From the NCBI GenBank assembly GCA_002712715.1, contig PAUF01000006.1:26378-86584 (forward strand): a DNA stretch of 60,207 nucleotides. Reading direction: 5' to 3'. Every line of letters begins with the position of its first letter. The first letter of the stretch is position 1. Source of the DNA: Flavobacteriales bacterium. Lineage in GTDB: Bacteria; Bacteroidota; Bacteroidia; Flavobacteriales; BACL11. Positions 72 through 28,587 of the stretch are shown piece by piece. The translations under genes were made by a program, and so were the position numbers. Below the pieces are notes generated by a model, which saw nothing but the letters and a program-made list of their open reading frames with translations, had not been told where the DNA came from and ran no database searches.

Positions 72-1649
72 ATGAAAATAATTATACTTTTTTTAATCTT
101 TTCTTTGAATTCAATTTATTTAATATCACAATCTTTCAATGGTTTTGCTTTATATAATTCTCAAGGTTCAAATACTACATATTTAATTGATGAGAATCAA
201 AATATTGCACATACATGGAATTTAAATTCCGAATGTAATTATACGGTTCTTTTAAAGAAAAATGGAAATTTAATTAGGGGTACAAAATATAATAATAATG
301 TGTTAGGAGGTGCTGCAGATGCTGGTAGAGTTCAAGAAATTTCACCTGATGGATCTATAGTCTGGGATTATATATATTCTAGTGCAGATCATTTAAGTCA
401 TCATGATATTACTCTTGTAGGAGATAATGTTTTATTAACTGCTTGGGAGGTGAAATCAGCATCAGAATTAGTAGATGCAGGATTTACAGGAAATGTTGGC
501 AGTGCAGGAAAATGGCCAACACATTTTGTTGAGTTGCAAGATGATGGAAATGGTAGTGCAAATATTGTTTGGGAATGGCATATTTGGGATCATTTATGTC
601 AAGATGTTGATCCAAATAAACCAAATTATGTGACAAATATTTCAGATTACCCACAATTAATTGATATTAATATGATTCAGGGTGGTGGTGGAGGCCCAGG
701 TGGACAGAGTGGTGATTGGTTTCATGTCAATGGAGTTGATTATAATGAAGAATTAGATCAAATAGTTTTTTCTTCTCGTTTTGCCTCTGAAATATATATA
801 ATAGATCACAGTACTACAACTGCGGAAGCTTCGTCTCATTCTGGTGGTAATTCTGGAATGGGTGGTGATATTTTGTATAGATGGGGTAATCCTTCTAATT
901 ATGGAATGACAGGAGTCCAAACTATTCCAAGTGCAGTTCATGATTCAAGATGGATACCAAATGATGGTAGACCAAATGGTGGATATTTGCAAATTTTTAA
1001 TAATAAAGGTATTAGTAATAATCAATCGACTGTTGATGGTATTAAGACACCATTAGATCCTTCAACTGGTTATAATTATTTAAGAACTCCAGGACAACCG
1101 TATGGTCCATCATCATATACTACTAGATATGTTTGTCAGTTCTCAGCTCCTGGTCAATCTGCTTCTGATAGAATGTCAAATGGAAATATTTTTGTAAATG
1201 CTTCTGGAGGTCAAGGAGGTAGTGGTGTAATGTACGAGGTTGATTCTTTAGAAAATTTAGTTTGGGGTCCATATAATGCTCAATCTCAAAAGGGGTTTAG
1301 GTATGAATGTGATTATCCTGGAATAATAGCACTTAAGCCCTATATGAATACTAATTCGACAAGTTGTTTTGATCATACTGGAAATAACTTGTTATTTAAA
1401 AGTAATATTTTAGTTTCCCCAAACCCTACACATGATTTCATAAAAATAGGTTTGAATCAATATAACAGTGGTGTTGTAAATGTTCAAATAGTTAACGTAT
1501 TCGGCAAAATAATTTACAATGAAATAACTGATGTGTTTTCTAAAAATATAGTTCAAATTGATATGCGTGATTTTTCAGATGGACTATATTTTGTTAATGT
1601 TAATTCAGATAAAAATACTCATACTCAAATAATATCACTAATAAAATAA
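72..1649 (+). CDS. Secreted arylsulfotransferase-like (ASST) protein with T9SS sorting domain
   Basis: 525 residues. A signal peptide (about 1-20, ending ...LISQS) is followed by an ASST-type beta-propeller: the N-terminal signature NTTYLIDENQNIAHTW and the histidine-bearing segments SHHDIT, WFHVNGVDYN and SAVHDSRWIP, which resemble the histidines used for sulfate transfer in the family. Residues about 444-525 form a T9SS type A sorting domain (VSPNPTHDF ... DGLYFVNV), so the protein should be exported and attached to or released from the cell surface. ASST enzymes move sulfate between phenolic compounds without PAPS; whether this member does so is inferred, since many flavobacterial relatives are uncharacterised. 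It is the first gene of the 72-10052 gene set and overlaps the next gene by one base (TAATG). Confidence 0.8.
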   Translation: MKIIILFLIFSLNSIYLISQSFNGFALYNSQGSNTTYLIDENQNIAHTWNLNSECNYTVLLKKNGNLIRGTKYNNNVLGGAADAGRVQEISPDGSIVWDYIYSSADHLSHHDITLVGDNVLLTAWEVKSASELVDAGFTGNVGSAGKWPTHFVELQDDGNGSANIVWEWHIWDHLCQDVDPNKPNYVTNISDYPQLIDINMIQGGGGGPGGQSGDWFHVNGVDYNEELDQIVFSSRFASEIYIIDHSTTTAEASSHSGGNSGMGGDILYRWGNPSNYGMTGVQTIPSAVHDSRWIPNDGRPNGGYLQIFNNKGISNNQSTVDGIKTPLDPSTGYNYLRTPGQPYGPSSYTTRYVCQFSAPGQSASDRMSNGNIFVNASGGQGGSGVMYEVDSLENLVWGPYNAQSQKGFRYECDYPGIIALKPYMNTNSTSCFDHTGNNLLFKSNILVSPNPTHDFIKIGLNQYNSGVVNVQIVNVFGKIIYNEITDVFSKNIVQIDMRDFSDGLYFVNVNSDKNTHTQIISLIK

Positions 1650-3961
1650 TGAAGTTGTATAATTATTTATTAGTAGTTATTTGTATTGTCAATATCAATT
1701 TATTTTCTCAAAATAATTTTTACAATATTGATTCAGTTAAAGAAATTAAAATGGAATTTTATGAATCTAATTGGGATTATATTTTAGATAGTTTATATGT
1801 ATTAGGGCAAAAAGATAGAGTTTTGGCTGATGTAATTATTGACGGAATTAGATATGATAGTGCAGGAGTTAGATATAAAGGTTTCAGTTCTGTTAGTATT
1901 AATAGGATAAAGAATCCATTTAATATCAAACTAGATTATATCAAAGAAGATCAAAATCATTTAGGAATAAAAAAATTAAAATTATCTAATGTTATTCAGG
2001 ATCCTTCTTTTATAAGAGAGGTTTTATCTTATGAAATTTGTCGTAAATATCTCCCATCATCTCAGGCGAATTTTGCTAACTTATATATACATGATACTTT
2101 ATGGGGGTTATATACAAATGTCGAAGCAGTAAACAAAAGCTTTCTGTCAAAGCACTATGGAGAGAAGTATAATCCCTTTTTTAAATGTAATCCTGATCAT
2201 CTTAATATCCAAATTGGAGGAGAGAATTCAAATTTAAGTAATACTCATGGTACTGATAGTTCAGATTATTATTCATATTATGATATGGAGTCTAATTATG
2301 GATGGGAATCTTTATATGAGTTAATAGATACATTAAATATGTTAGGTGGTCTTTTTTTAAATACGGATGAAATTATAAATAGAGATCGGACTTTATGGAT
2401 GCATGCTCTAAATTATTCAATGATAAATTTTGATTCATATATTGGATATGGTCAAAATTACTATTTATATAAGGATCAATCTAATCAATGGAATCCAATT
2501 ATTTGGGATTTAAATATGTCTTTTGGCAGCTTTAGATTAACTGATGCTTCGCAGTTGTATTTTAATGGATTTAATATTAATCAAGCTCAAAATATGGATC
2601 CATTAACACATTTGAAATATATTTCAATATCTCCAAGACCATTAATAACAAATATGTTTACATCTCCTATGTACATGAGAATGTACCTTGCACATATTAG
2701 AACTATTATTAAGGAAAATTTTATCAATCAAGACTATTTTCACAGAGGACAATATATACAGGGTATAATTGACCAGCATGTACAAAATGATACAAATAAG
2801 TTTTATACGTATTCCGATTTTATTGCAAATTTAACAGATCAGGTTGCGTTACCATCCTCTATGTGTCCTGGCATCACGCAATTAATGGATGCGCGTTCAT
2901 CGTATTTAAGTTCTTATATTTATTTTGATACTGTAACGAATGCTGTAACAGCATATAGTGGAGAACCAACCATTAGTAACATAACGCATCTTCCTCAAAA
3001 TTTTTCAAATGGAGATGATTTGTATATACTAGCAGATATTAGTAATGCAAGTCACTCAAACGTTTTCAACTCGTCTGTAAAGGTGTTCTATAGATTTGGT
3101 AAAAATCAAAGATACAGGTCTGTAAATATGTATGATGATGGAAATAATTACGATGGTTTAGCTAATGATGGGGTATATGGATCTAAAATTGAAAATGTCA
3201 GTAATTCTATTGATTTTTATTTATATGCAGAAAATGATACCGCTGGTATTTTCTCACCTGAAAGAGCCTCTTATGAGTATTACACGATTAAAACTAATGT
3301 TGATTATAAAGATTTAGTTATCAATGAAATCATGTCTAATAATGAAAGTTATCTCACAGATAATAGTGGTAAATATGAAGATTGGATTGAGATATATAAT
3401 TCTAAGAGTTATCCGATTTCATTAGATGCATTGTATTTGTCAGATACTATTTCTGATCCGTTAAAGTTCAGTTTGCCAAATTATGTTTTATTGCCGAATC
3501 GTTACTGTGTAATTTGGGCTGATAATGATGGTCATCAAGGTGATGATCACGCAAACTTTCAGTTGTCTAATTTAGGAGAAGTACTTATTTTATCTAATTC
3601 TGATTCTTCCATAGTTGATTCTATAAATTTTATTTCTCAACCTGAGAATCTAGCTTATGCAAGGGTCCCAAATGGAACAGGATCTTTTGTGCTTCAACAA
3701 CCAACTTTTAAAGCAAATAATGATATTACATCAGATCATGAATTAAATTACGAGCAAATATCTGTATTTCCAAATCCTTTTGATAGATTTTTGAAAATTT
3801 TTTCAGATTGCTCTTATAATGTCAGTGATCTTTATGGGAAACTGATTATTAATAAATCTAATAATAATATAATCAATACATCAGGTTGGTCTTCTGGTAT
3901 TTATTTCATAAATTTGGATTGTGAGGAATTACAAAAAGTTAAGGTTATAAAAGTTAATTAG
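1649..3961 (+). CDS. Secreted CotH-kinase family protein with lamin-tail and T9SS domains (copy 1)
   Basis: 770 residues. Signal peptide (1-20), then a CotH-like kinase domain (about 25-430), recognised from the GVRYKGFSS segment, the LWGLYTNVEAVNKSFL strand-helix, YNPFFKCN, and the motif IIWDLNMSFGSF with Asp287. CotH proteins are atypical secreted kinases related in fold to FAM20C; Bacillus CotH phosphorylates spore-coat proteins. Residues about 553-690 form a lamin-tail domain (LVINEIMSNN ... EDWIEIYN ... YARVPNGTG), and about 704-770 a T9SS type A sorting domain. The usual D-x-D metal motif reads D-L-N here, which I recall as common in Bacteroidota relatives. Stop and next start are directly adjacent. 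A paralogue lies at 5223-7418. Confidence 0.85.
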   Translation: MKLYNYLLVVICIVNINLFSQNNFYNIDSVKEIKMEFYESNWDYILDSLYVLGQKDRVLADVIIDGIRYDSAGVRYKGFSSVSINRIKNPFNIKLDYIKEDQNHLGIKKLKLSNVIQDPSFIREVLSYEICRKYLPSSQANFANLYIHDTLWGLYTNVEAVNKSFLSKHYGEKYNPFFKCNPDHLNIQIGGENSNLSNTHGTDSSDYYSYYDMESNYGWESLYELIDTLNMLGGLFLNTDEIINRDRTLWMHALNYSMINFDSYIGYGQNYYLYKDQSNQWNPIIWDLNMSFGSFRLTDASQLYFNGFNINQAQNMDPLTHLKYISISPRPLITNMFTSPMYMRMYLAHIRTIIKENFINQDYFHRGQYIQGIIDQHVQNDTNKFYTYSDFIANLTDQVALPSSMCPGITQLMDARSSYLSSYIYFDTVTNAVTAYSGEPTISNITHLPQNFSNGDDLYILADISNASHSNVFNSSVKVFYRFGKNQRYRSVNMYDDGNNYDGLANDGVYGSKIENVSNSIDFYLYAENDTAGIFSPERASYEYYTIKTNVDYKDLVINEIMSNNESYLTDNSGKYEDWIEIYNSKSYPISLDALYLSDTISDPLKFSLPNYVLLPNRYCVIWADNDGHQGDDHANFQLSNLGEVLILSNSDSSIVDSINFISQPENLAYARVPNGTGSFVLQQPTFKANNDITSDHELNYEQISVFPNPFDRFLKIFSDCSYNVSDLYGKLIINKSNNNIINTSGWSSGIYFINLDCEELQKVKVIKVN

Positions 3962-5194
3962 ATGAGGTATATAGTACTATTTGTGTTTTTAATTAAGTCA
4001 TTTGTAAATGCAGATGCTCAAATATTAGTAAATTATTCCACTATAGATGGATTATCTTCTGATTTTGTTGAATGTATTGAGGTAGATATTTATGATAATA
4101 TTTGGGTTGGAAGTTCACTAGGTGTTCAGAAATTTGATGGATTGAATTGGACTTTGTACAATACAAATTCCTATCCATCAATGGCTTCAGATAACATAAA
4201 GGTAATTTCCTCTATTAGTAATGGTGATATATGGATTGGTACAGATTTTGGAGTTAGTAGATTTGATGGAATTGATTGGTTTACATATGATGTTACAAAT
4301 GGATTAAATAATAATCAGGTTTACTCTATTGATGAGACAGACGATGGTATTATATGGATTGGAACACATTCAGGTGTATCTTTTTATGATGGTAGTAATT
4401 GGAACTCGTATGGTTTTCCAGATATTCATTGGAGCGGTGTGAATGGAGTAACTAATGACATGAATGGTCATGTTTGGTTCTCCACTCCTCTAGGAGGTGT
4501 TATACATAAGGTTAATAGTAATTTTATTACATATGATACTTCCTCAGGACTTTTGTCTCAAAATACAACAAGTATTGCAATTGATAATAATAATAATAAG
4601 TGGATTGGCACAGGCGGAGGAGTATCTGTATTAGATTCATTAAATTATATATTTACTCATCATACAAGAATGTATATTATGCCACCTCCTGATACACTTA
4701 ATCCTGTAGTAGATATTGAAATTGATTACAATAATAATCCATGGATAGCTATTTATGTAGGATATTTAGCTGAGGGTGGAGTAGCTATGTGGAAACATTT
4801 GACTAGTGATTGGTTAGATTATGATCATACTGATGGATTAGTAGGAAAAAATATTAAAGATATATCTATAGATTCAGAGAACAATATTTGGATAGCTACT
4901 ACCACCGGTGTATCTAAGTTGATTCTGGATGTGAATTCAGATAATTATGAAAAATTTAATAGAAATGAGTTAATTTTTCCAAACCCTTCTAATGATATTT
5001 TAACAATTAGTCATTTTCATAATCAAATTTTGAATTTTAAGATTTTCAATAATTTTTCACAGTTAGTATATTCTGGTTTAATTGAAGGTAATGAAAAAGA
5101 ATTAGATATCTCACATTTAAATAAAGGAATATATTATTTGATGATTCAAAAAAATAGTAATGAAATTATTAGTTATAAGTTTATAGTTCAGTAG
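3962..5194 (+). CDS. Secreted two-component-regulator-type beta-propeller protein with T9SS domain
   Basis: 410 residues. Signal peptide (1-19, ...NADAQ), then about seven propeller repeats (20-325) of the Reg_prop type: NIWVGSSLGVQKFDG, IWIGTDFGVSRFDG, IWIGTHSGVSFYDG, VWFSTPLGG, KWIGTGGGVSVLD, PWIAIYVGY and IWIATTTGVSKL. Residues about 336-410 are a T9SS type A sorting domain (IFPNPSNDIL ... LNKGIYYLMI). Such propellers usually form the sensor half of hybrid two-component systems, but here no membrane segment, histidine kinase or regulator follows, so it is a free exported propeller, probably a binding or scaffold protein. It sits between the two CotH paralogues, which suggests a shared substrate or complex (inference). 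Confidence 0.8.
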   Translation: MRYIVLFVFLIKSFVNADAQILVNYSTIDGLSSDFVECIEVDIYDNIWVGSSLGVQKFDGLNWTLYNTNSYPSMASDNIKVISSISNGDIWIGTDFGVSRFDGIDWFTYDVTNGLNNNQVYSIDETDDGIIWIGTHSGVSFYDGSNWNSYGFPDIHWSGVNGVTNDMNGHVWFSTPLGGVIHKVNSNFITYDTSSGLLSQNTTSIAIDNNNNKWIGTGGGVSVLDSLNYIFTHHTRMYIMPPPDTLNPVVDIEIDYNNNPWIAIYVGYLAEGGVAMWKHLTSDWLDYDHTDGLVGKNIKDISIDSENNIWIATTTGVSKLILDVNSDNYEKFNRNELIFPNPSNDILTISHFHNQILNFKIFNNFSQLVYSGLIEGNEKELDISHLNKGIYYLMIQKNSNEIISYKFIVQ

Positions 5195-5222
5195 TTTTGT
5201 TTAATGATTTTAAATTATATAG

Positions 5223-7418
5223 ATGTTGAATAAATTAATTACATATATTTTTATCTTCAGTGTTTTACTTTCTAATTCTCAGAATGTTTTTGATGATAAT
5301 GTTAGAGATATTAAAATTTATTTTTCCAATCTAAATTGGAACAATATTTTACACACATACGTTTCAAATAATTTAGGAGAGAGGCTAATCGCTGATTCCA
5401 TAATTATTGATGGATATATAGATGAGGATGTTGGAGTTATGTATAGAAATAATAGCACCTATAATTCTAATAGCATAAAAAACCCAATTAATATTAAGTT
5501 AGATTATATCAATAATGGTCAATCTATAAATCGTTATAATATTTTGAATTTATCTAATGGATATGGTGATCCATCCTTTGTTAGAGAGGTCTTGGCTTAT
5601 GATATTGCAAAAGACTATATGCCTTCTCCTAAGTCTTCTTATGCTAATGTTTATATTAATGATACTTTGATTGGACTTTTTACATTGATTCAATCAATTG
5701 ATGATGATTTTACAAATGAAAATTTTTATGAAAGAAAAGGTCCTTTATTTCAAGTGGTAAATACAGGAACTTCTGTTGCTGGATGTTCTTTATTGTCTGG
5801 AGTATTGGAATATAATTCTGATACCAATTGTTATCTGCAAGCATATTCTATGCAGTCTTCAAATGATTGGCAAAAACTCAACAATTTCTTAGATACTTTG
5901 AATAATACTTTTTCTAATATTGAAGAAGTAATGAATATTGATAGAGCTATCTGGATGCTAGCATTTCAAAATTTGCTTGCAAGTTTAGATGGTCCTGCGA
6001 ATTCTATAGCTAATAATTTTTACTTATTTCAAGACAATAATAAGAGATTTTCTCCAATTTTGTATGATATGAGTATGTCATTTGGATCTTATGGCAGCCT
6101 ATCAACGTCGTTTAACATAGTAGATTTGCAACAATTAGATGTTTTTCACAGGTCAGATGATATGTCAAATAAGTTAACATCAACTATTTTTTCAAATGAT
6201 CGATTTAAGAAAATGTATGTTGCTCATATGCGTACTATAATAAATGAAAAGTTTGCAAATAATTATTACCTTAATCATGCTTTAAATCTGCAAACAATAA
6301 TTTCTAATTATGTTAGTTTAGATCCAAATGGGTTTTATAGTTTTAATGAATTTATTAATAATATTAATTCATCAGTTGCGGTTATCCCTGGAATATCAGA
6401 ATTAATGGGTGATAGAATTTCATTTATTGAAGGTTTAAATGAGTTTAATTTAAATACTCCAATCATTTCCAATATTTCTGATGATGCAGTTTTGCCTCAT
6501 TCTAACATATTTGTTACAGCTGAGGTTGATAATGCTAATTATGTATGTTTAGGATATAGGTTTGAATTTTCTGAAGATTTCAAAAAAATCCAGATGTTTG
6601 ATGACGGTAATAATGGTGATGGTATAGCTGGTGATGGAGTTTTTGGTGTTAGCATTGATGTAGATGCAAGGGATTTACAATTTTATATTTATGCTGAGAA
6701 TATTGAGTCGGGTATTTTTTCACCTGAAAGGGCAGAGCATGAGTTTCATCAGTTACCTGTAGTTAGTGGTTTAGTAATTAATGAAATTATGGCATCTAAT
6801 TCAAATTCAGTTTCTGATCAAGATGGCGAGTTTGATGATTGGGTAGAGCTATATAATAGAGGTACATCAACTATTAATTTATCAGGGTTTTATTTGTCTG
6901 ACAATAAAAATGATTTAAATAAATGGACTTTTCCTAATATAAATATTATGCCTGGAGAGTATTTAATTATTTGGTGTGATACTGCGGGAACTACTCAAAA
7001 TGGTTTACACACTACATATAGATTATCCGCTGATCAGGAAGAAGTATATTTAACTGACCCTAGTGGCAATGTTATTGATGCAGTCCATTTTGTCAATATG
7101 CCCACAGATATCGCTTATGCTAGAGTTCCAAACGGGAATGGGGTATTTAGATATCAAGATCATTCACAATCTTTAAATAATCAGATTATATCATCTAATT
7201 TTGTAAATAATGACGTGTATGAAAGTTATCTTTATCCAAATCCTGCTAATAAATTAATAACTGTTGTTGGTTCAGAAGAAAGTGTTTATATATACGATAT
7301 TACAGGTAAGTTAATAATTTCTTCTGATGAATTAGAAAACATTGATATTTCTATTTTAAATCCAGGACTATATATTTTAAATACTGGATCAATTAGATTA
7401 AAATTTATAAAGAATTAA
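5223..7418 (+). CDS. Secreted CotH-kinase family protein with lamin-tail and T9SS domains (copy 2)
   Basis: 731 residues with the same architecture as the protein at 1649-3961: signal peptide (1-19), CotH-like domain (about 20-400; GVMYRNNSTY, LIGLFTLIQSIDDDF, and ILYDMSMSFGSY with Asp282), lamin-tail domain (about 516-655; LVINEIMASN ... DDWVELYN ... YARVPNGNG) and T9SS type A domain (about 668-731; YLYPNPANKL). The metal motif is D-M-S, further from D-x-D than copy 1, so weaker or lost kinase activity is possible. The two copies are clearly paralogous but diverged along their whole length, so the duplication is not recent. Four bases separate it from the lipoprotein gene. Confidence 0.85.
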   Translation: MLNKLITYIFIFSVLLSNSQNVFDDNVRDIKIYFSNLNWNNILHTYVSNNLGERLIADSIIIDGYIDEDVGVMYRNNSTYNSNSIKNPINIKLDYINNGQSINRYNILNLSNGYGDPSFVREVLAYDIAKDYMPSPKSSYANVYINDTLIGLFTLIQSIDDDFTNENFYERKGPLFQVVNTGTSVAGCSLLSGVLEYNSDTNCYLQAYSMQSSNDWQKLNNFLDTLNNTFSNIEEVMNIDRAIWMLAFQNLLASLDGPANSIANNFYLFQDNNKRFSPILYDMSMSFGSYGSLSTSFNIVDLQQLDVFHRSDDMSNKLTSTIFSNDRFKKMYVAHMRTIINEKFANNYYLNHALNLQTIISNYVSLDPNGFYSFNEFINNINSSVAVIPGISELMGDRISFIEGLNEFNLNTPIISNISDDAVLPHSNIFVTAEVDNANYVCLGYRFEFSEDFKKIQMFDDGNNGDGIAGDGVFGVSIDVDARDLQFYIYAENIESGIFSPERAEHEFHQLPVVSGLVINEIMASNSNSVSDQDGEFDDWVELYNRGTSTINLSGFYLSDNKNDLNKWTFPNINIMPGEYLIIWCDTAGTTQNGLHTTYRLSADQEEVYLTDPSGNVIDAVHFVNMPTDIAYARVPNGNGVFRYQDHSQSLNNQIISSNFVNNDVYESYLYPNPANKLITVVGSEESVYIYDITGKLIISSDELENIDISILNPGLYILNTGSIRLKFIKN

Positions 7419-7421
7419 TTT

Positions 7422-7826
7422 ATGAAAAATTTATATTTTATTTTGTTATTATTACTATTTTTTTCATGTTCAAAAGGACCAGGAGAAGGAGGAACATCAA
7501 TGATTAATGGAAGGGTGATTCATTATACTACTGAGTATAATACTCAAACATCTACTAATGATACCTTATATTTTCCTAAAGCTGGAAAAGATGTTTATAT
7601 AATTTATGGTAATGACATTCATGATATTTATGATGATAATGTCGAAACAGATTGGAATGGTAATTTTCAATTTGATTTTCTTCGTAAAGGTGAGTATGTT
7701 ATTTACACTTATATTGACAGTAATCTAACAGGTTCGGTTGATTATGATTTTCCAGTATTTAGAAATATTACAATTAATGACAATAATAGCATTAATACTG
7801 TTAACGAATTTATTTTAGAAAATTAG
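7422..7826 (+). CDS. Small lipoprotein, function unknown
   Basis: 134 residues. The N-terminus is a lipoprotein signal with lipobox LFFSC (Cys16) followed by SKGPGEGG, a Gly-rich stretch resembling lipoprotein export signals for surface exposure in Bacteroidota. The mature part looks like one beta-sandwich (MINGRVIHY ... GNFQFDFLRKGEYVIYTYID), similar in pattern to carboxypeptidase-regulatory-like domains but with no sure family match. The stop codon overlaps the start of the polyphosphate-polymerase gene by one base, so the two are probably translated together. It may be an outer-membrane anchor or partner for the CotH proteins, which is inference from position only. Confidence 0.75.
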   Translation: MKNLYFILLLLLFFSCSKGPGEGGTSMINGRVIHYTTEYNTQTSTNDTLYFPKAGKDVYIIYGNDIHDIYDDNVETDWNGNFQFDFLRKGEYVIYTYIDSNLTGSVDYDFPVFRNITINDNNSINTVNEFILEN

Positions 7827-8572
7827 TGGACAAATTAACATCCATAGTTAATAATTTTAATTCTATTTCCCTTTCACAAATGGATAAGGTGAAATTGATG
7901 AAGAGAACTGATACAAAATATGCATTTCATTTTTCTAAGCTATCATTGCTTTTATCAAAATTGCAACATCATTATTTAATTTTAGAAATAAAAAAAAATA
8001 GGATGCAGTCTTATCGTTCATTATATTTTGATACTGTTGAAAGAAAATTTTATTTAGATCACCATAATCAAAGAGTAAATCGTAATAAAATCAGGTTTCG
8101 TGAATATATTGAAAGTAAGTTAGTTTTTATGGAGATAAAAACTAAAAATAATAAGGGTAGGACAACAAAAAAAAGAATTAAGGTTTCTTCAATACCAACT
8201 TCCCTTAATGAAATTCATCATAATTTTATACATGAAATTATTGGTAAGGAATTAGATGTTCAGGCTCAACAATGGATTAATTTTAATAGACTTACTTTTG
8301 TAAATATTTTGAAAAATGAAAGATTGACAATTGATGTGAATCTTAATTTTAGTCAGAATAATCATAGTGTAGAGATGTCTGATATTGTTATTGCCGAGTT
8401 AAAACAAGAAAGGATGAGTAGACGATCTGAATTTATAAGAATTAGCAAGGATTTAGGGATACATCCAATGAGACTTAGTAAATATTGTTATTCCTCCACT
8501 CAGCTTAATCCTAATTTGAAAAAAAACAGATTTAAAAAGAAGTTATTATATATCAATAAATTAGTTGCTTAA
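7826..8572 (+). CDS. VTC-domain polyphosphate polymerase family protein
   Basis: 248 residues, no signal peptide or membrane segment. The whole protein matches the VTC/CYTH-like tunnel fold seen in yeast Vtc4, which makes polyphosphate from ATP: MKRTDTKYAFH, SLYFDTVERKFYLDHHNQR, NRNKIRFREY, FMEIKTKNNKGRTTKKRI, and the late SRRSEFIRIS segment. The basic Arg/Lys residues expected to line the tunnel and an acidic Glu (MEIK) are present. The start is GTG at 7826, overlapping the lipoprotein stop (TAGTG). In many bacteria this family neighbours DUF4956 and CotH genes, as here. The substrate could be another triphosphate, but polyphosphate synthesis is the best-supported guess. Confidence 0.85.
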   Translation: MDKLTSIVNNFNSISLSQMDKVKLMKRTDTKYAFHFSKLSLLLSKLQHHYLILEIKKNRMQSYRSLYFDTVERKFYLDHHNQRVNRNKIRFREYIESKLVFMEIKTKNNKGRTTKKRIKVSSIPTSLNEIHHNFIHEIIGKELDVQAQQWINFNRLTFVNILKNERLTIDVNLNFSQNNHSVEMSDIVIAELKQERMSRRSEFIRISKDLGIHPMRLSKYCYSSTQLNPNLKKNRFKKKLLYINKLVA

Positions 8573-8587
8573 TTAAAAATTTATAAA

Positions 8588-9430
8588 ATGAAAAAAATAT
8601 TTTTTACATTAATATTAGTTGTTTCTTCAGGTATTGTATTCTCTCAGAATATTAAATCTCCTTCAATTGAATCTTTAGAAAAAACAATAGATAGTCTCGA
8701 AAATATTATTTTGACACTTCCTGCTGAAGAATTTAAAAGTCATGATAATATTGATGATATGATTAAGATACTTAAAGAGAAGAAAGATATTTTATTAGAG
8801 ATTGAAGAATCAAACATTGATACTTACTTTGGTGCTGAATTATATAATGATGAAGATTTTTGGAAATTAATTATTAAGGGTGTTTTCAATCTATTAGTAG
8901 TCATTATACTTGTTAGATATATATATTATCCTATTACTAGAAATAAGGACTATTTATTTACGTATTTATTAATCAGTTTGACCGTATTTCTTTTGTGTTT
9001 CCTCTTGGATAATGTAAAGTTGCAACTAGGATTTGCATTGGGTTTATTTGCAATTTTTGGTATCATTAGATACAGAACTGACCCAATTCCTATTAAAGAA
9101 ATGACTTATCTCTTCTTAGTAATTGGCGTATCTGTAGTTAATGCGCTTGCAAATAATAAAATTAGTCATGCGGAATTACTATTTGCCAATCTTCTTATAG
9201 TATTTGTTACTTATGGAATGGAAAGACTTTGGTTGTTGAGGCATGAGGCTCGTAAGAATATTATTTATGAAAAGATTGATTTGATTGCTCCTGAAAAAAG
9301 ACAAGAACTCATAAAAGATTTAAACAAAAGAACGGGGTTGGATATTACTAGAGTTGAAATTAGGAGAGTAGATTTTTTGAGAGATGTGGCAAATATTAGA
9401 ATCTTCTATTATGAGGATATTACGGAATAG
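8588..9430 (+). CDS. DUF4956 membrane protein
   Basis: 280 residues. An N-terminal signal or anchor (1-20, ...VFSQN) is followed by a short extracytoplasmic helical part (25-90) and then four or five membrane segments: about 97-118 (LLVVIILVRYIYYP), 124-140, 148-163, 170-187 and 193-210. The core GLFAIFGIIRYRTDPIPIKEMTYLF and the soluble C-terminal domain (about 215-280) are the hallmarks of DUF4956. Its function is unknown. It repeatedly occurs next to VTC-type polyphosphate polymerases, so a role in moving or sensing polyphosphate across the inner membrane is plausible, as inference. It overlaps the following gene by 20 bases. Confidence 0.85.
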   Translation: MKKIFFTLILVVSSGIVFSQNIKSPSIESLEKTIDSLENIILTLPAEEFKSHDNIDDMIKILKEKKDILLEIEESNIDTYFGAELYNDEDFWKLIIKGVFNLLVVIILVRYIYYPITRNKDYLFTYLLISLTVFLLCFLLDNVKLQLGFALGLFAIFGIIRYRTDPIPIKEMTYLFLVIGVSVVNALANNKISHAELLFANLLIVFVTYGMERLWLLRHEARKNIIYEKIDLIAPEKRQELIKDLNKRTGLDITRVEIRRVDFLRDVANIRIFYYEDITE

Positions 9431-10052
9431 TATTTGTTTTTTTATAATATTCTCAATAAATACATTTTCACAAGAGAATGATTTTCAAGTTTGGGAAAGT
9501 ATTAGGATTAGTAAAAAAATATATAAGAGAACTAATGTGTATTTATCTCATGGATTAAGATTCAGAGAAAATTCAACTATTCTTGATAAAAATTATTTAG
9601 ATATAAAAATTGCTCATCGAATTCGAAAAACTGATAGACGCATTATAATGGGCTATAGGATTTCTAATATTTTAGCAGGATCCTATTCTTATAACAGAAA
9701 CAGGTTTTATTTTGATTACATTCCGAATTATACTTTTAAGAGATATAAGTTTTCTTTAAGAAATAGGGTAGAATATGAGGGTAATAATAACTCTTATAAT
9801 TGGTTTTTTCGTGAAAGATGTAATATATCATATAATATTAGAAAGAATCCACTCGAACCATTTATTCAAGTTGAATATTTTTTAGATATTAAAAAGAATA
9901 TAATTGATAAATTACGGTATTCTTTTGGAATATCATATCCTATATTTAATAATGTTGATGCTTCACTTTATTATAGATTACAACAGGAAATCAATGTGAA
10001 AAATCCTAATGATCTTTATATTTTAGGAATTAAATTAAAATATAAGATTTAG
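9411..10052 (+). CDS. DUF2490 outer-membrane-like protein
   Basis: 213 residues from ATG at 9411. An upstream in-frame ATG at 9384 is rejected because only the later start gives a clean signal peptide (MRILRNSICFFIIFSINTFSQ). The mature protein has the DUF2490 pattern: DFQVWESIRISKKI, then alternating amphipathic strands with many Arg/Tyr, such as RFRENSTILDKNYLDIK and RFYFDYIPNYTF, ending in an aromatic strand. This predicts a small outer-membrane beta-barrel. The function of the family is unknown. It is the last gene of the 72-10052 set and converges with the DtxR-type gene, overlapping it by four bases. Confidence 0.75.
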   Translation: MRILRNSICFFIIFSINTFSQENDFQVWESIRISKKIYKRTNVYLSHGLRFRENSTILDKNYLDIKIAHRIRKTDRRIIMGYRISNILAGSYSYNRNRFYFDYIPNYTFKRYKFSLRNRVEYEGNNNSYNWFFRERCNISYNIRKNPLEPFIQVEYFLDIKKNIIDKLRYSFGISYPIFNNVDASLYYRLQQEINVKNPNDLYILGIKLKYKI

Positions 10053-10708
10053 TTTTCTTCTTTCTTTACTAGTATATTTCTTGCTAATTCTAGGGTAATT
10101 AGGTATTCTTTCTTGTTGATTTTGATTTCGATAGAATCATCGAATTTAAGTATATTTTTTACCTGAATAAATGATCCAATATTAAGACCAATTTTATTTA
10201 AAAACATTAGAAATTCTTTATTGTCTTGAAGTACCCCCATAACAGTCCCCTTTTCATTAATTTTGAGTTTATTTATTGCGATCGAGTTAGTTTTAGGGAA
10301 TGTCCCATGAGTATTTGGTATAGGGTCACCATGAGGGTCAAATTCTGGATAACCTAAATAGTTATCTAACAAACTAACTAGTTTTTCTGAATCTATATGT
10401 TCTAATTGTTCAGCCACTTCATGCACTTCATCCCATTTGAAATTCAATTTTTTTACAAGGAATGTCTCCCATAGTCTATGTTTTCTTACAATTGTTGTAG
10501 CAATTTTTTTGCCCTTTACAGTAAGGCTAACTCCATTATATTTTTCATAATTTAAAAGTCCCTTATCTTTCAACTTTTTTAACATGTCTGATGCTGAGGA
10601 TGCTTTAATTTTTAATTTCTTAGAAATTTCATTAGTAGTAACAACTTTATTATTTTCAGATAATAAAAAAATATTCTTTAAATAATTTTCTACAGTTTTT
10701 GATATCAT
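10049..10708 (-). CDS. DtxR/MntR-family metal-dependent transcriptional regulator
   Basis: 219 residues. Residues 1-60 form a winged helix (VENYLKNIFLLSE ... TTNEISKKLKIKASSASDMLKKL), about 63-140 the dimerisation and metal-binding domain (HRLWETFLVKKL, HEVAEQLEHIDSE, EFDPHGDPIP) and about 150-219 an FeoA/SH3-like C-terminal domain. The His/Glu/Asp pattern fits binding of Mn(II) or Fe(II), making it a repressor of metal uptake genes. No metal transporter is next to it; the closest candidate is the metal-type TonB receptor at 13564. A -7-like box TATTTTTG lies only five bases upstream of the start codon, so its use here is doubtful. Confidence 0.9.
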   Translation of the reverse strand: MISKTVENYLKNIFLLSENNKVVTTNEISKKLKIKASSASDMLKKLKDKGLLNYEKYNGVSLTVKGKKIATTIVRKHRLWETFLVKKLNFKWDEVHEVAEQLEHIDSEKLVSLLDNYLGYPEFDPHGDPIPNTHGTFPKTNSIAINKLKINEKGTVMGVLQDNKEFLMFLNKIGLNIGSFIQVKNILKFDDSIEIKINKKEYLITLELARNILVKKEEN

Positions 10709-21273: not shown

Positions 21274-21280
21274 TAAAAAA

Positions 21281-21376
21281 GGGTAAGCTACTTATATCGC
21301 ACCGCTACAACCTAATACCCTTGCTACATTCCTGTCCTGGGGGATTCTTAGGGAGCTGGTCGCACAAGACTTACCC
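21281..21376 (-). ncRNA. ffs: Small signal recognition particle RNA (4.5S type)
   Basis: On the minus strand a 96-base RNA is closed by the terminal stem GGGTAAG...CTTACCC. Near the apex it carries the conserved SRP core CCCAGGACAGGAATGTAGCA, matching the CAGG / GGAA-type loop / AGCA internal loops that bind Ffh. A T-rich tract (TTTTTTATTA) directly follows the 3' stem, so the closing helix probably doubles as terminator. A well-formed promoter lies just upstream at 21386-21414. tmRNA and tRNA were considered and do not fit. Confidence 0.9.
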
Positions 21377-21385
21377 TTAAGTGTG

Positions 21386-25740: not shown

Positions 25741-28587
25741 ATGCCAAAAGATAATAACATCAAATCTATTTTAATTATTGGGAGTGGTCCTATAGTAATT
25801 GGTCAAGCTTGTGAGTTTGATTACTCAGGCTCTCAATCATCAAGGTCGCTTCGTGAAGAAGGAATTGAGGTTTCATTGATTAATTCTAATCCAGCAACCA
25901 TTATGACAGATAAGGTTGTTGCCGATCACGTATATTTAAAGCCTTTAACTACTCAATCTCTAGAAGAAATATTAAATGAGAGAAGTGTTGATGCTGTCTT
26001 ACCGACAATGGGCGGACAAACAGCGTTAAATCTTTGTATTGAAGCTGATGAGAAAGGTATTTGGGAAAAACATAATGTGAAAATTATTGGAGTTGATATT
26101 GAAGCTATTCATATTACTGAAGACAGAGAAAGATTTCGTAAATTAATGAATAAGATTGATATTCCAGTTGCTCCTGCTCGTATTGCAACATCGTTTTTAG
26201 AAGGAAAGGCTATAGCTCAAGAGTTAGGATTTCCTTTAGTTATTAGACCTTCTTTTACTTTAGGTGGATCTGGAGCATCTTTTGTTCATCATAAAGAAGA
26301 TTTTGAAGAATTACTTTCCAAAGGATTGCACGCTTCTCCAATACATGAAGTGTTAATTGATAAAGCAGTACTTGGTTGGAAGGAATATGAATTAGAGTTG
26401 TTAAGAGATGATAATGATAATGTAATTATTATTTGTTCTATTGAGAATTTTGATCCAATGGGAATTCATACAGGTGATTCAATTACAGTTGCTCCTTCAA
26501 TGACTTTATCTGACACTTGTTATCAGCGCATGAGAGATATGGCGATTAAAATGATGCGTTCAATTGGTGATTTTGCAGGAGGATGTAATGTGCAGTTTGC
26601 TGTAAGTCCTGATGAAAATGAAGATATTATTGCGATTGAAATAAATCCACGAGTTTCTAGATCTTCAGCACTAGCATCAAAAGCAACAGGATATCCAATA
26701 GCTAAAATCGCAACTAAGTTAGCAATAGGATATACTTTAGATGAATTAGATAATCAAATAACTCAATCTACTTCCTCATTTTTTGAGCCTGCTTTAGATT
26801 ATGTAGTTGTTAAGTTTCCAAGGTGGAATTTTGATAAATTTAAAGGAGCTGATAATAAATTGGGTTTACAGATGAAATCTGTAGGAGAAGTTATGGCTAT
26901 TGGAAGATCTTTTCAAGAGGCGATGCAGAAGGCGTGTCAATCATTAGAAATTGGTAGGAATGGTTTAGGTGCTGATGGAAAAGGGGAAACAGATCAAGAC
27001 AAAATATTGTATTCATTAGAACATGCTAGTGGGGATAGAGTTTTTAGAATCTATGATGCTATGCGGATTGGAATTCCAACTAGTAAAATCCATAAAATAA
27101 CCAAAATAGATTATTGGTTTTTACATCAAATTGAAGAATTAGTTGTTTTTGAAAGAGAAATTGAAAAATATAATATTGATAGTTTGCCTGCAGATCTTCT
27201 ATTAGAAGCTAAAATTAAAGGATATGCTGATAGACAAGTAGCTCATCTAATTCAATGTCTAGAAAGTCAGGTGTATCAATTAAGAAATGATAAGGGAATT
27301 AAAAGAGTTTATAAATTAGTTGATACTTGTGCTGCTGAATTTAAGGCTAAAACTCCTTATTATTATTCAACTTTCGAAATGCCTCAAAAGATTAGTGAGA
27401 ATAAATTTACTGAAAATGAAAGTATTTCTTCAAGTAATCAAAAAGTTATTGTTTTAGGGTCTGGACCTAATAGAATAGGTCAAGGAATCGAATTTGATTA
27501 TTCATGTGTTCATGGAGTACTTGCTTCTAAAGAATGTGGATATGAAACCATTATGATTAATTGTAACCCTGAGACGGTGTCTACAGATTTCGACACAGCT
27601 GATAAATTATATTTTGAACCTGTTTTTTGGGAACATATTTATGATATTATTAGGCATGAAAATCCAATTGGAGTTATTGTTCAACTTGGTGGGCAGACTG
27701 CATTAAAATTAGCTGAGAAGTTAGAGAGATATAATATAAAAATATTAGGAACTTCTTTCAATGCTTTAGATGTAGCTGAAGATAGAGGAAGTTTTTCGGA
27801 ATTATTAAAAAAACATGATATACCTTATCCAAAATTCGCGGTCGCTAGTACAGCTGAGGAAGCTATTAGTATTTCTAAAGAATTGAATTTCCCTATACTT
27901 GTTAGGCCTTCCTATGTTTTAGGAGGACAAGGTATGAAGATAGTTATAAATGAAGAAGAATTAGAACATCATATTGTTGATTTACTCAAAGATATGCCAG
28001 GTAATAAAGTTCTTTTAGATCATTATCTTGATAAAGCTATAGAGGCAGAGGCAGATGCGATTTCTGATGGAGAAGATGTTAAAATTATTGGCATTATGGA
28101 GCATATTGAGCCCTGTGGAATACATTCTGGTGATTCTTATGCAGTTTTGCCTACTTTTGATCTTTCAGATAATGTGAGGCAACAGATGATAGATATTACC
28201 CAAAAAATAGCTATAGCATTGGAGACTGTAGGTTTGATTAATATTCAATTTGCTATTAAGAATGAAAAGGTTTATGTTATTGAAGCTAACCCTAGAGCTT
28301 CTAGGACTGTCCCTTTTATTGCAAAAGCTTACGATGAGCCTTATGTTAATTATGCTGCTAAGGTAATGTTAGGAAAGAAAAAAATAAAGGATATAAAATT
28401 TAATCCTACTAAAAAAGGGTATGCAATAAAGGTTCCGGTTTTTTCCTTTAATAAATTTCCTAATGTTAATAAAGAATTAGGGCCAGAAATGAAATCAACA
28501 GGTGAATCTATATATTTTATAGATGATCTTCATGATGATTATTTTACAAAAGTTTATTCTGAGAGAAATCTTTATTTAAGTAAATAG
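25741..28587 (+). CDS. carB: Carbamoyl-phosphate synthase large subunit (short form)
   Basis: 948 residues. Two ATP-grasp halves are present: the first starts KSILIIGSGPIVIGQACEFDYSGSQ, with EINPRVSRSSALASKATGYP; the second starts KVIVLGSGPNRIGQGIEFDYSCVH, with VIEANPRASRTVPFIAKAY. The protein ends just after FNKFPNVNKELGPEMKSTGE, so it lacks the roughly 120-residue MGS-like allosteric domain present in E. coli CarB. Shorter CarB proteins of this size occur in flavobacteria as far as I recall, so this is probably not a broken gene. It makes carbamoyl phosphate for arginine and pyrimidines. No carA is adjacent. Confidence 0.95.
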   Translation: MPKDNNIKSILIIGSGPIVIGQACEFDYSGSQSSRSLREEGIEVSLINSNPATIMTDKVVADHVYLKPLTTQSLEEILNERSVDAVLPTMGGQTALNLCIEADEKGIWEKHNVKIIGVDIEAIHITEDRERFRKLMNKIDIPVAPARIATSFLEGKAIAQELGFPLVIRPSFTLGGSGASFVHHKEDFEELLSKGLHASPIHEVLIDKAVLGWKEYELELLRDDNDNVIIICSIENFDPMGIHTGDSITVAPSMTLSDTCYQRMRDMAIKMMRSIGDFAGGCNVQFAVSPDENEDIIAIEINPRVSRSSALASKATGYPIAKIATKLAIGYTLDELDNQITQSTSSFFEPALDYVVVKFPRWNFDKFKGADNKLGLQMKSVGEVMAIGRSFQEAMQKACQSLEIGRNGLGADGKGETDQDKILYSLEHASGDRVFRIYDAMRIGIPTSKIHKITKIDYWFLHQIEELVVFEREIEKYNIDSLPADLLLEAKIKGYADRQVAHLIQCLESQVYQLRNDKGIKRVYKLVDTCAAEFKAKTPYYYSTFEMPQKISENKFTENESISSSNQKVIVLGSGPNRIGQGIEFDYSCVHGVLASKECGYETIMINCNPETVSTDFDTADKLYFEPVFWEHIYDIIRHENPIGVIVQLGGQTALKLAEKLERYNIKILGTSFNALDVAEDRGSFSELLKKHDIPYPKFAVASTAEEAISISKELNFPILVRPSYVLGGQGMKIVINEEELEHHIVDLLKDMPGNKVLLDHYLDKAIEAEADAISDGEDVKIIGIMEHIEPCGIHSGDSYAVLPTFDLSDNVRQQMIDITQKIAIALETVGLINIQFAIKNEKVYVIEANPRASRTVPFIAKAYDEPYVNYAAKVMLGKKKIKDIKFNPTKKGYAIKVPVFSFNKFPNVNKELGPEMKSTGESIYFIDDLHDDYFTKVYSERNLYLSK

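Follow-up and report, generated by a model that had tools for sequence, protein, structure and literature searches.

Bacterial polyphosphate synthesis is credited to PPK1 and PPK2 (PMC13318637, PMC10657179). In the yeast VTC complex (Vtc1/Vtc3/Vtc4), a channel lined with basic residues couples the synthesis of polyphosphate to its translocation, and the loss of the basic residues at the entrance of this channel empties the vacuolar store (PMC9911596). In Gram-positive bacteria, CotH, a polyphosphate polymerase, DUF4956 and DUF4832 form a published accessory set of Pel clusters, which directly adjoins the pel genes of streptococci and clostridia and has a similar counterpart in bifidobacteria, and a regulatory role was suggested for CotH (PMC7112168). 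The NELoc-2 locus of Clostridium perfringens likewise groups genes of VTC, a membrane protein and CotH (PMC2879425).

The locus considered here belongs to a Bacteroidota genome of 1.55 Mb (91% complete, 18 contigs), and the window, i.e., the whole stretch of 60,207 nucleotides that was analysed, corresponds to positions 26378–86584 of its contig. Positions 72–10052 of the window are filled by eight ORFs of the + strand with junctions from −46 to +28 bp, so the eight same-strand genes with tiny gaps or overlaps described in an earlier note on this DNA were borne out. Pfam and NCBIfam profile searches gave matches to the families named there for seven genes, and the eighth was recognised as a lipoprotein by its LFFSC lipobox, with no family above the cut-off of these searches. 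The first gene (72–1649) encodes an ASST-like beta-propeller of 525 aa with a signal peptide (ASST PF05935, E=1.4e-10). It is followed by a CotH kinase-fold protein of 770 aa with choice-of-anchor X and Lamin Tail Domain (1649–3961), a two-component-regulator-type propeller of 410 aa (3962–5194; Reg_prop PF07494) and a second CotH kinase-fold protein of 731 aa with a Lamin Tail Domain (5223–7418); the two CotH proteins match PF08757 at E=4e-34 and 8e-34. All four of these exported proteins end in T9SS type A sorting tails, as was expected of T9SS-exported partners. Then come the small lipoprotein of 134 aa (7422–7826), for which a transthyretin-like fold is weakly suggested, the VTC domain protein of 248 aa with a GTG start, a predicted polyphosphate polymerase (7826–8572; PF09359, E=1e-23), the DUF4956 inner-membrane protein of 280 aa with a signal-peptide-like N-terminus (8588–9430; PF16316, E=7e-55) and the DUF2490 outer-membrane barrel, a predicted anion porin (9411–10052; PF10677, E=7.5e-21). 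For the last gene, the start at 9411 is more likely than that at 9384 in the mechanical ORF list because MRILRNSICFF is a signal peptide.

Beyond the window edge, a mazG-like gene of the same strand ends 76 bp upstream of the block. On the other side, a gene of an MntR/DtxR-type metal regulator with a FeoA domain (10049–10708, − strand) is convergent and overlaps the end of the operon by 4 bp; in many loci of the same family its place is taken by a cytidine-deaminase-like gene (about 162 aa, as read from sequence). The sole Rfam match of the window is a Bacteroidales-type small SRP RNA at 21277–21383, − strand (RF04183, 109 bits). A defence system was rejected, as PADLOC gave no match apart from a weak one between VTC and a Cas11 model, which was regarded as accidental.

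In comparison with the Gram-positive Pel accessory set, the same three families are found and are contiguous: the CotH protein of 731 aa, the lipoprotein, VTC and DUF4956 stand in a row. No pel family was recognised in the cassette by Pfam, and nothing resembling a pel gene was seen in the upstream 16 kb, read as ORFs only. The cassette differs from that set in its CotH proteins, which are exported by T9SS and carry Lamin Tail Domains, and in two additions that would be required by a cell with two membranes, namely a lipoprotein and a probable outer-membrane porin. The published contiguity with pel genes allows the reading that modification or regulation of a surface polysaccharide or matrix is the task of the module, as was suggested for the Pel accessory set, with polyphosphate being at most incidental. 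We consider this very unlikely, as no polysaccharide synthase was recognised in the cassette or among the recurring neighbour clusters examined. In our opinion, the operon may rather encode a two-membrane route of polyphosphate synthesis and export with surface effectors; the chances that this reading as a whole is right or wrong appear evenly balanced.

The recurrence of the cassette was studied in DUF4956 loci drawn from its own family, from the phylum and from named genomes, and the genes in these loci were assigned by profiles derived from the proteins of the window. The resulting 127 loci represent one DUF4956 cluster and are not fully independent, since a few of them are one genome sampled by two routes (e.g., L066 and L125). 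VTC directly precedes DUF4956 in 115 of the 127 loci, on the same strand in all, with a median spacing of −8 bp, i.e., an overlap, and with 113 of 116 gaps not exceeding 50 bp. DUF2490 adjoins this core in 82 loci and the lipoprotein is present in 56, mostly directly before VTC, both on the same strand throughout. In the own family, the order VTC-DUF4956-DUF2490 is kept in 24/24 loci and the lipoprotein in 23/24; CotH adjoins in 16/24 and the propeller in 12/24, some contigs ending within the cassette. Many Crocinitomicaceae-type loci contain VTC-DUF4956 without further partners, which, like the limited share of loci with DUF2490, counts against the two-membrane export reading. In 14 loci, including L134, L157, L166 and L175, a second small exported family (about 138 aa, with YDxxGN-type repeats) stands before VTC, either in place of the lipoprotein or along with it, on the same strand in all. 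The shorter DUF4956 type of other Bacteroidota (L108, L110, L113–L117, L124) has a companion gene resembling an HlyD periplasmic adaptor, above the cut-off in L116 and weak or unassigned elsewhere, and this adaptor is possibly a further envelope partner. In about ten related loci (L130, L135, L136, L142, L148, L155, L156 and L184 among them), VTC-DUF4956 stands beside opposite-strand porV/porU-like T9SS genes. These PorV/PorU neighbours, as well as those resembling LpxK, purine nucleoside phosphorylase, GatB and cytidine deaminase, were identified by sequence reading only and were taken as housekeeping synteny.

At the level of whole genomes, VTC was found in 48 of 297 Bacteroidota genomes and DUF4956 in all 48 of these carriers. 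CotH is present in 47/48 VTC carriers versus 60/249 genomes without VTC. When CotH was shuffled within families (excluding 8 genomes for which no family is listed), 37.0 ± 2.1 joint cases were obtained on average, with a maximum of 44 in 20,000 shuffles, versus the 47 observed (p ~5e-5). Among 14 control genomes, VTC and DUF4956 occur in the same three, namely a Bacteroides, the actinobacterium Corynebacterium glutamicum and the archaeon Methanosarcina acetivorans. It was also considered that the cluster might be a chance or purely positional gathering of unrelated surface genes: the ASST-like, propeller and CotH genes are non-adjacent in most loci, and synteny within the own family is inherited. 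However, VTC is present in 24 families, never without DUF4956 and with order and strand kept, and the CotH association exceeds every permutation, so such an origin is extremely improbable for the locus as a whole; it is refuted for VTC, DUF4956, DUF2490 and CotH and is possible for the ASST-like and propeller genes. The VTC-DUF4956 cassette is far above chance, and the grouping is supported as a real, recurring functional unit. The earlier statement that the CotH-VTC-DUF4956 neighbourhood recurs in bacteria agrees with these counts and with the published trio (PMC7112168). Co-occurrence over Bacteroidota, which that note put forward as a check for all eight families, extends beyond one genome for VTC, DUF4956, DUF2490, the lipoprotein and CotH, but the ASST-like protein and the regulator-type propeller are accessory members, belonging mostly to the own family plus few others. 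The former gave no sequence match in PDB, and its designation as a proven sulfotransferase was dropped.

A search of PDB with the single VTC sequence gave no match, and only the alignment was successful: the profile of 54 VTC relatives finds yeast VTC2/VTC4 (3g3o, E=2.5e-4; 3g3q, E=0.0026). Residues K31, R90, R92, K105, R155, R166, E191 and K219 are invariant in 54/54 relatives; in a wider set of 49 VTC proteins including more distant relatives, there is one exception each at K31, R92 and E191 and two at R166. As read from the profile alignment, these eight residues correspond to the active-site residues K200, R264, R266, K281, R361, R373, E426 and K458 of VTC4. The impaired mutant of the cryo-EM work on the yeast complex was R264A/R266A/E426N (PMC9911596). 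The bacterial protein thus looks catalytically intact, and polyphosphate synthesis is predicted for it; in the open literature searched, there was no study of the product of a bacterial VTC and no biochemical proof of polyphosphate synthesis by one, which counts against the export reading. No membrane domain was recognised in bacterial VTC. Its C-terminal tail after the last active-site lysine is basic, with invariant N234 and K237, and would sit where VTC4 continues into its membrane domain.

DUF4956 is supported as an inner-membrane protein suited to be the membrane partner of VTC. In its model (pLDDT 85), there are five membrane-type helices and, at the C-terminus, a ferredoxin-like domain. 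In 58 relatives, the loops predicted inside carry about 3 Lys plus Arg each and those predicted outside 0.4–1.6, from which an N-out topology with a cytoplasmic C-terminal domain is predicted; the N-terminus of the window protein, which resembles a signal peptide, agrees with this. The motif R161-Y162-R163-T164 is invariant in 58/58 relatives and lies where helix 3 is predicted to reach the cytoplasm. By its position, it may be likened to the basic channel entrance of yeast VTC; structural homology is not claimed. A relationship to any solved membrane protein was rejected, because there was no PDB match by profile or by fold (best fold E=0.06), and thus a channel function is not readable from structure. 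The cassette shares with the yeast VTC complex a TTM-fold polymerase with matching active-site residues and a membrane part with conserved basic residues. In contrast to yeast, the role of the membrane part would fall to DUF4956, an unrelated protein separate from the polymerase, and the destination of the polymer would be outside the cell rather than in the vacuole. As the DUF202-type membrane domain and SPX are absent from all cassette proteins by Pfam, the cassette can be said to work like, but not to be, a eukaryotic VTC complex.

DUF2490 is listed as a putative porin, TCDB 1.B.81, without established function (PMC4827864). In PDB, the sole relevant matches of its profile are KdgM (E=0.003) and NanC (E=0.008). 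The model (pLDDT 94) is a small barrel with 11 long strands by DSSP and a short one, the KdgM/NanC family being 12-stranded, and KdgM is the best small-barrel match in Foldseek (E=1.4e-3, probability 1.0, TM 0.49/0.58). With the numbering from the start at 9411, R50, R83 and R134 are invariant, and R98, R117, R119, R136 and R169 are Arg or Lys in at least 87% of sequences; the inward face of the strands bearing them was assumed from the alternation of polar residues. Like the KdgM/NanC porins (PDB 4fqe, 4pr7, 2wjr), DUF2490 is modelled as a small barrel of similar length with arginines that presumably face inward, although the relationship is distant and weak by sequence (about 15% identity). 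It is probably an anion-selective outer-membrane porin of KdgM/NanC-like type. KdgM/NanC-type porins usually take their substrates in, which counts against export. In two loci, DUF4956 is followed by an OprO/OprP-type porin (PF07396), a family of phosphate and pyrophosphate porins also described as uptake channels (PMC9769906). On a Pseudoalteromonas plasmid (E=2e-47), the gap between DUF4956 and the porin is 1 bp and VTC is a 104-aa fragment; in the Bacteroidota locus L107 (E=2.5e-7), the porin is followed by CotH, and VTC is elsewhere in the genome. The plasmid locus (L206, 5261–5957) also contains a Lamin Tail Domain lipoprotein followed by the truncated VTC frame of 104 aa, and this domain recurs near the module even without CotH.

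Outside the Bacteroidota, phosphate genes adjoin the core. In Nitratireductor, the order is DUF4956-VTC-PiT transporter-phytase-like, and in Aminobacter and Shinella it is DUF4956-VTC-phytase-like; in Deinococcus taeanensis, it is CotH-VTC-DUF4956, and in Deinococcus sp. QL22, VTC-DUF4956 lies near an acid phosphatase and phnDCE. Together with the uptake role of the known porins, the transporter, phytase-like and phosphatase genes of these proteobacteria and Deinococcus would suit an inward-directed module, in which external polyphosphate or phosphate esters are scavenged through the porin and DUF4956 and VTC binds or uses the chain at the inner face. This direction seems unlikely to us. The product of the VTC4 polymerase leaves the cytosol (PMC9911596), Gram-positive and archaeal carriers retain VTC and DUF4956, and uptake does not explain the presence of CotH in almost every VTC carrier.

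With regard to PPK enzymes, in the own family (25 genomes of 1–2 Mb) PPK1 was found in 0/25 and PPK2 in 1/25, and the module is kept in 24/25. PPK1 is also present in 18/20 full-length DUF4956 carriers of the phylum sample, so the idea of VTC as a general replacement of PPK1 was rejected; it holds only for the own family and few others. The genome G171 carries VTC and DUF4956 and gave no match to PPK1.

CotH phosphorylates the Ser-rich coat protein CotB in Bacillus subtilis (PMC7821199). A profile made from 35 CotH proteins finds the solved spore coat protein H of B. cereus type (5jd9, E=1e-43). In the numbering of the first CotH protein of the cassette, K88, D262, N270, D287 and R416 are nearly invariant, and equivalents are kept in both window proteins. 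The latter share with the spore coat kinase (PDB 5jd9, 5jda) the kinase fold, by profile, and the catalytic D, N and D, and their phosphotransfer to Ser/Thr is putative. Unlike spore CotH, they leave the cell through T9SS and carry Lamin Tail as well as sorting domains, and no Ser-rich CotB/CotG-like substrate was seen by eye near the cassette. Three own-family loci (L072, L085, L086) and the similar L126 have intact upstream sequence and no adjacent CotH, which suggested that CotH is merely optional, but the genome-level counts reject this: those of the four that are numbered genomes of the Bacteroidota sample carry CotH elsewhere. The dependence is one-way, as VTC occurs almost never without CotH and CotH often without VTC, and this fits a VTC product that is used in a CotH-dependent process. 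It would also fit a module in which the surface kinase receives from VTC-DUF4956 a phosphate donor that is not polyphosphate, or in which these two proteins produce some other anionic polymer, an alternative closest to the nucleotide option of the earlier note; the preserved active-site equivalents of CotH and the binding of ATP or AMP in its solved structures (PMC12189002) are in line with this. We regard it as rather unlikely, because the VTC residues match the site of a polyphosphate polymerase and the neighbours elsewhere are phosphate and not nucleotide genes.

The preferred reading, synthesis of polyphosphate followed by its export through two membranes, may be outlined as follows. VTC, located in the cytoplasm at the inner membrane, would transfer phosphate from ATP to polyphosphate as yeast VTC4 does. 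DUF4956 would supply the membrane part for this VTC without the helices of VTC4, with RYRT marking the mouth on the cytoplasmic side and the cytoplasmic domain lying close to VTC, and the chain would be threaded through it across the inner membrane. The chain would leave through the arginine-lined DUF2490 barrel, which would have the small lipoprotein for a partner in the envelope. Outside the cell, the CotH proteins exported by T9SS would work on the polymer or together with it, so as to take phosphate from it as a donor or to attach it; the use as a donor is putative but plausible. The computed part of this outline comprises gene order, conservation, active-site residues, co-occurrence and the modelled barrel type. 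We infer polyphosphate export itself with fair support; the identity of the polymer, the outward direction, the contact of VTC with DUF4956 and the role of CotH are likewise proposed here. According to the earlier note, polyphosphate or a nucleotide made inside might be passed by DUF4956 and used for phosphorylation of surface proteins where ATP is scarce. This first reading stands in part, namely in the functional unit, in VTC that is intact by its residues, in DUF4956 as the inner-membrane partner and in the association of CotH with VTC even when they are non-adjacent. The probable DUF2490 porin, which would complete the route out, was absent from that account and is added here. A wider and rather doubtful generalisation is that bacteria and archaea share a two-part VTC machine, VTC plus DUF4956, coupling polyphosphate synthesis to export, to which a porin (DUF2490 or an OprO/OprP relative) is added in two-membrane cells, and that surface CotH takes extracellular polyphosphate as a donor where ATP is scarce.

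In relation to the described systems, the conservation of the VTC4 site, the five-helix model of DUF4956 with RYRT and the retention of the module without PPK1 in the own family are new. Also new are the probable outer-membrane porin, the setting among phosphate genes, the dependence of VTC on CotH at the level of genomes, and the two-membrane export model suggested by several independent lines. If the model is true, bacteria would possess a second polyphosphate route, formed by a widespread VTC-type polymerase, its membrane partner and an outer pore, in which the polymer is sent outside. It would suggest how surface kinases such as CotH obtain phosphate outside the cell and would provide the first function for DUF4956 and DUF2490. 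The proposed exit pore in the outer membrane makes the function of the previously listed core testable, and the marine family studied here, which lacks PPK1 and keeps the module in genomes of 1–2 Mb, offers a clean case.
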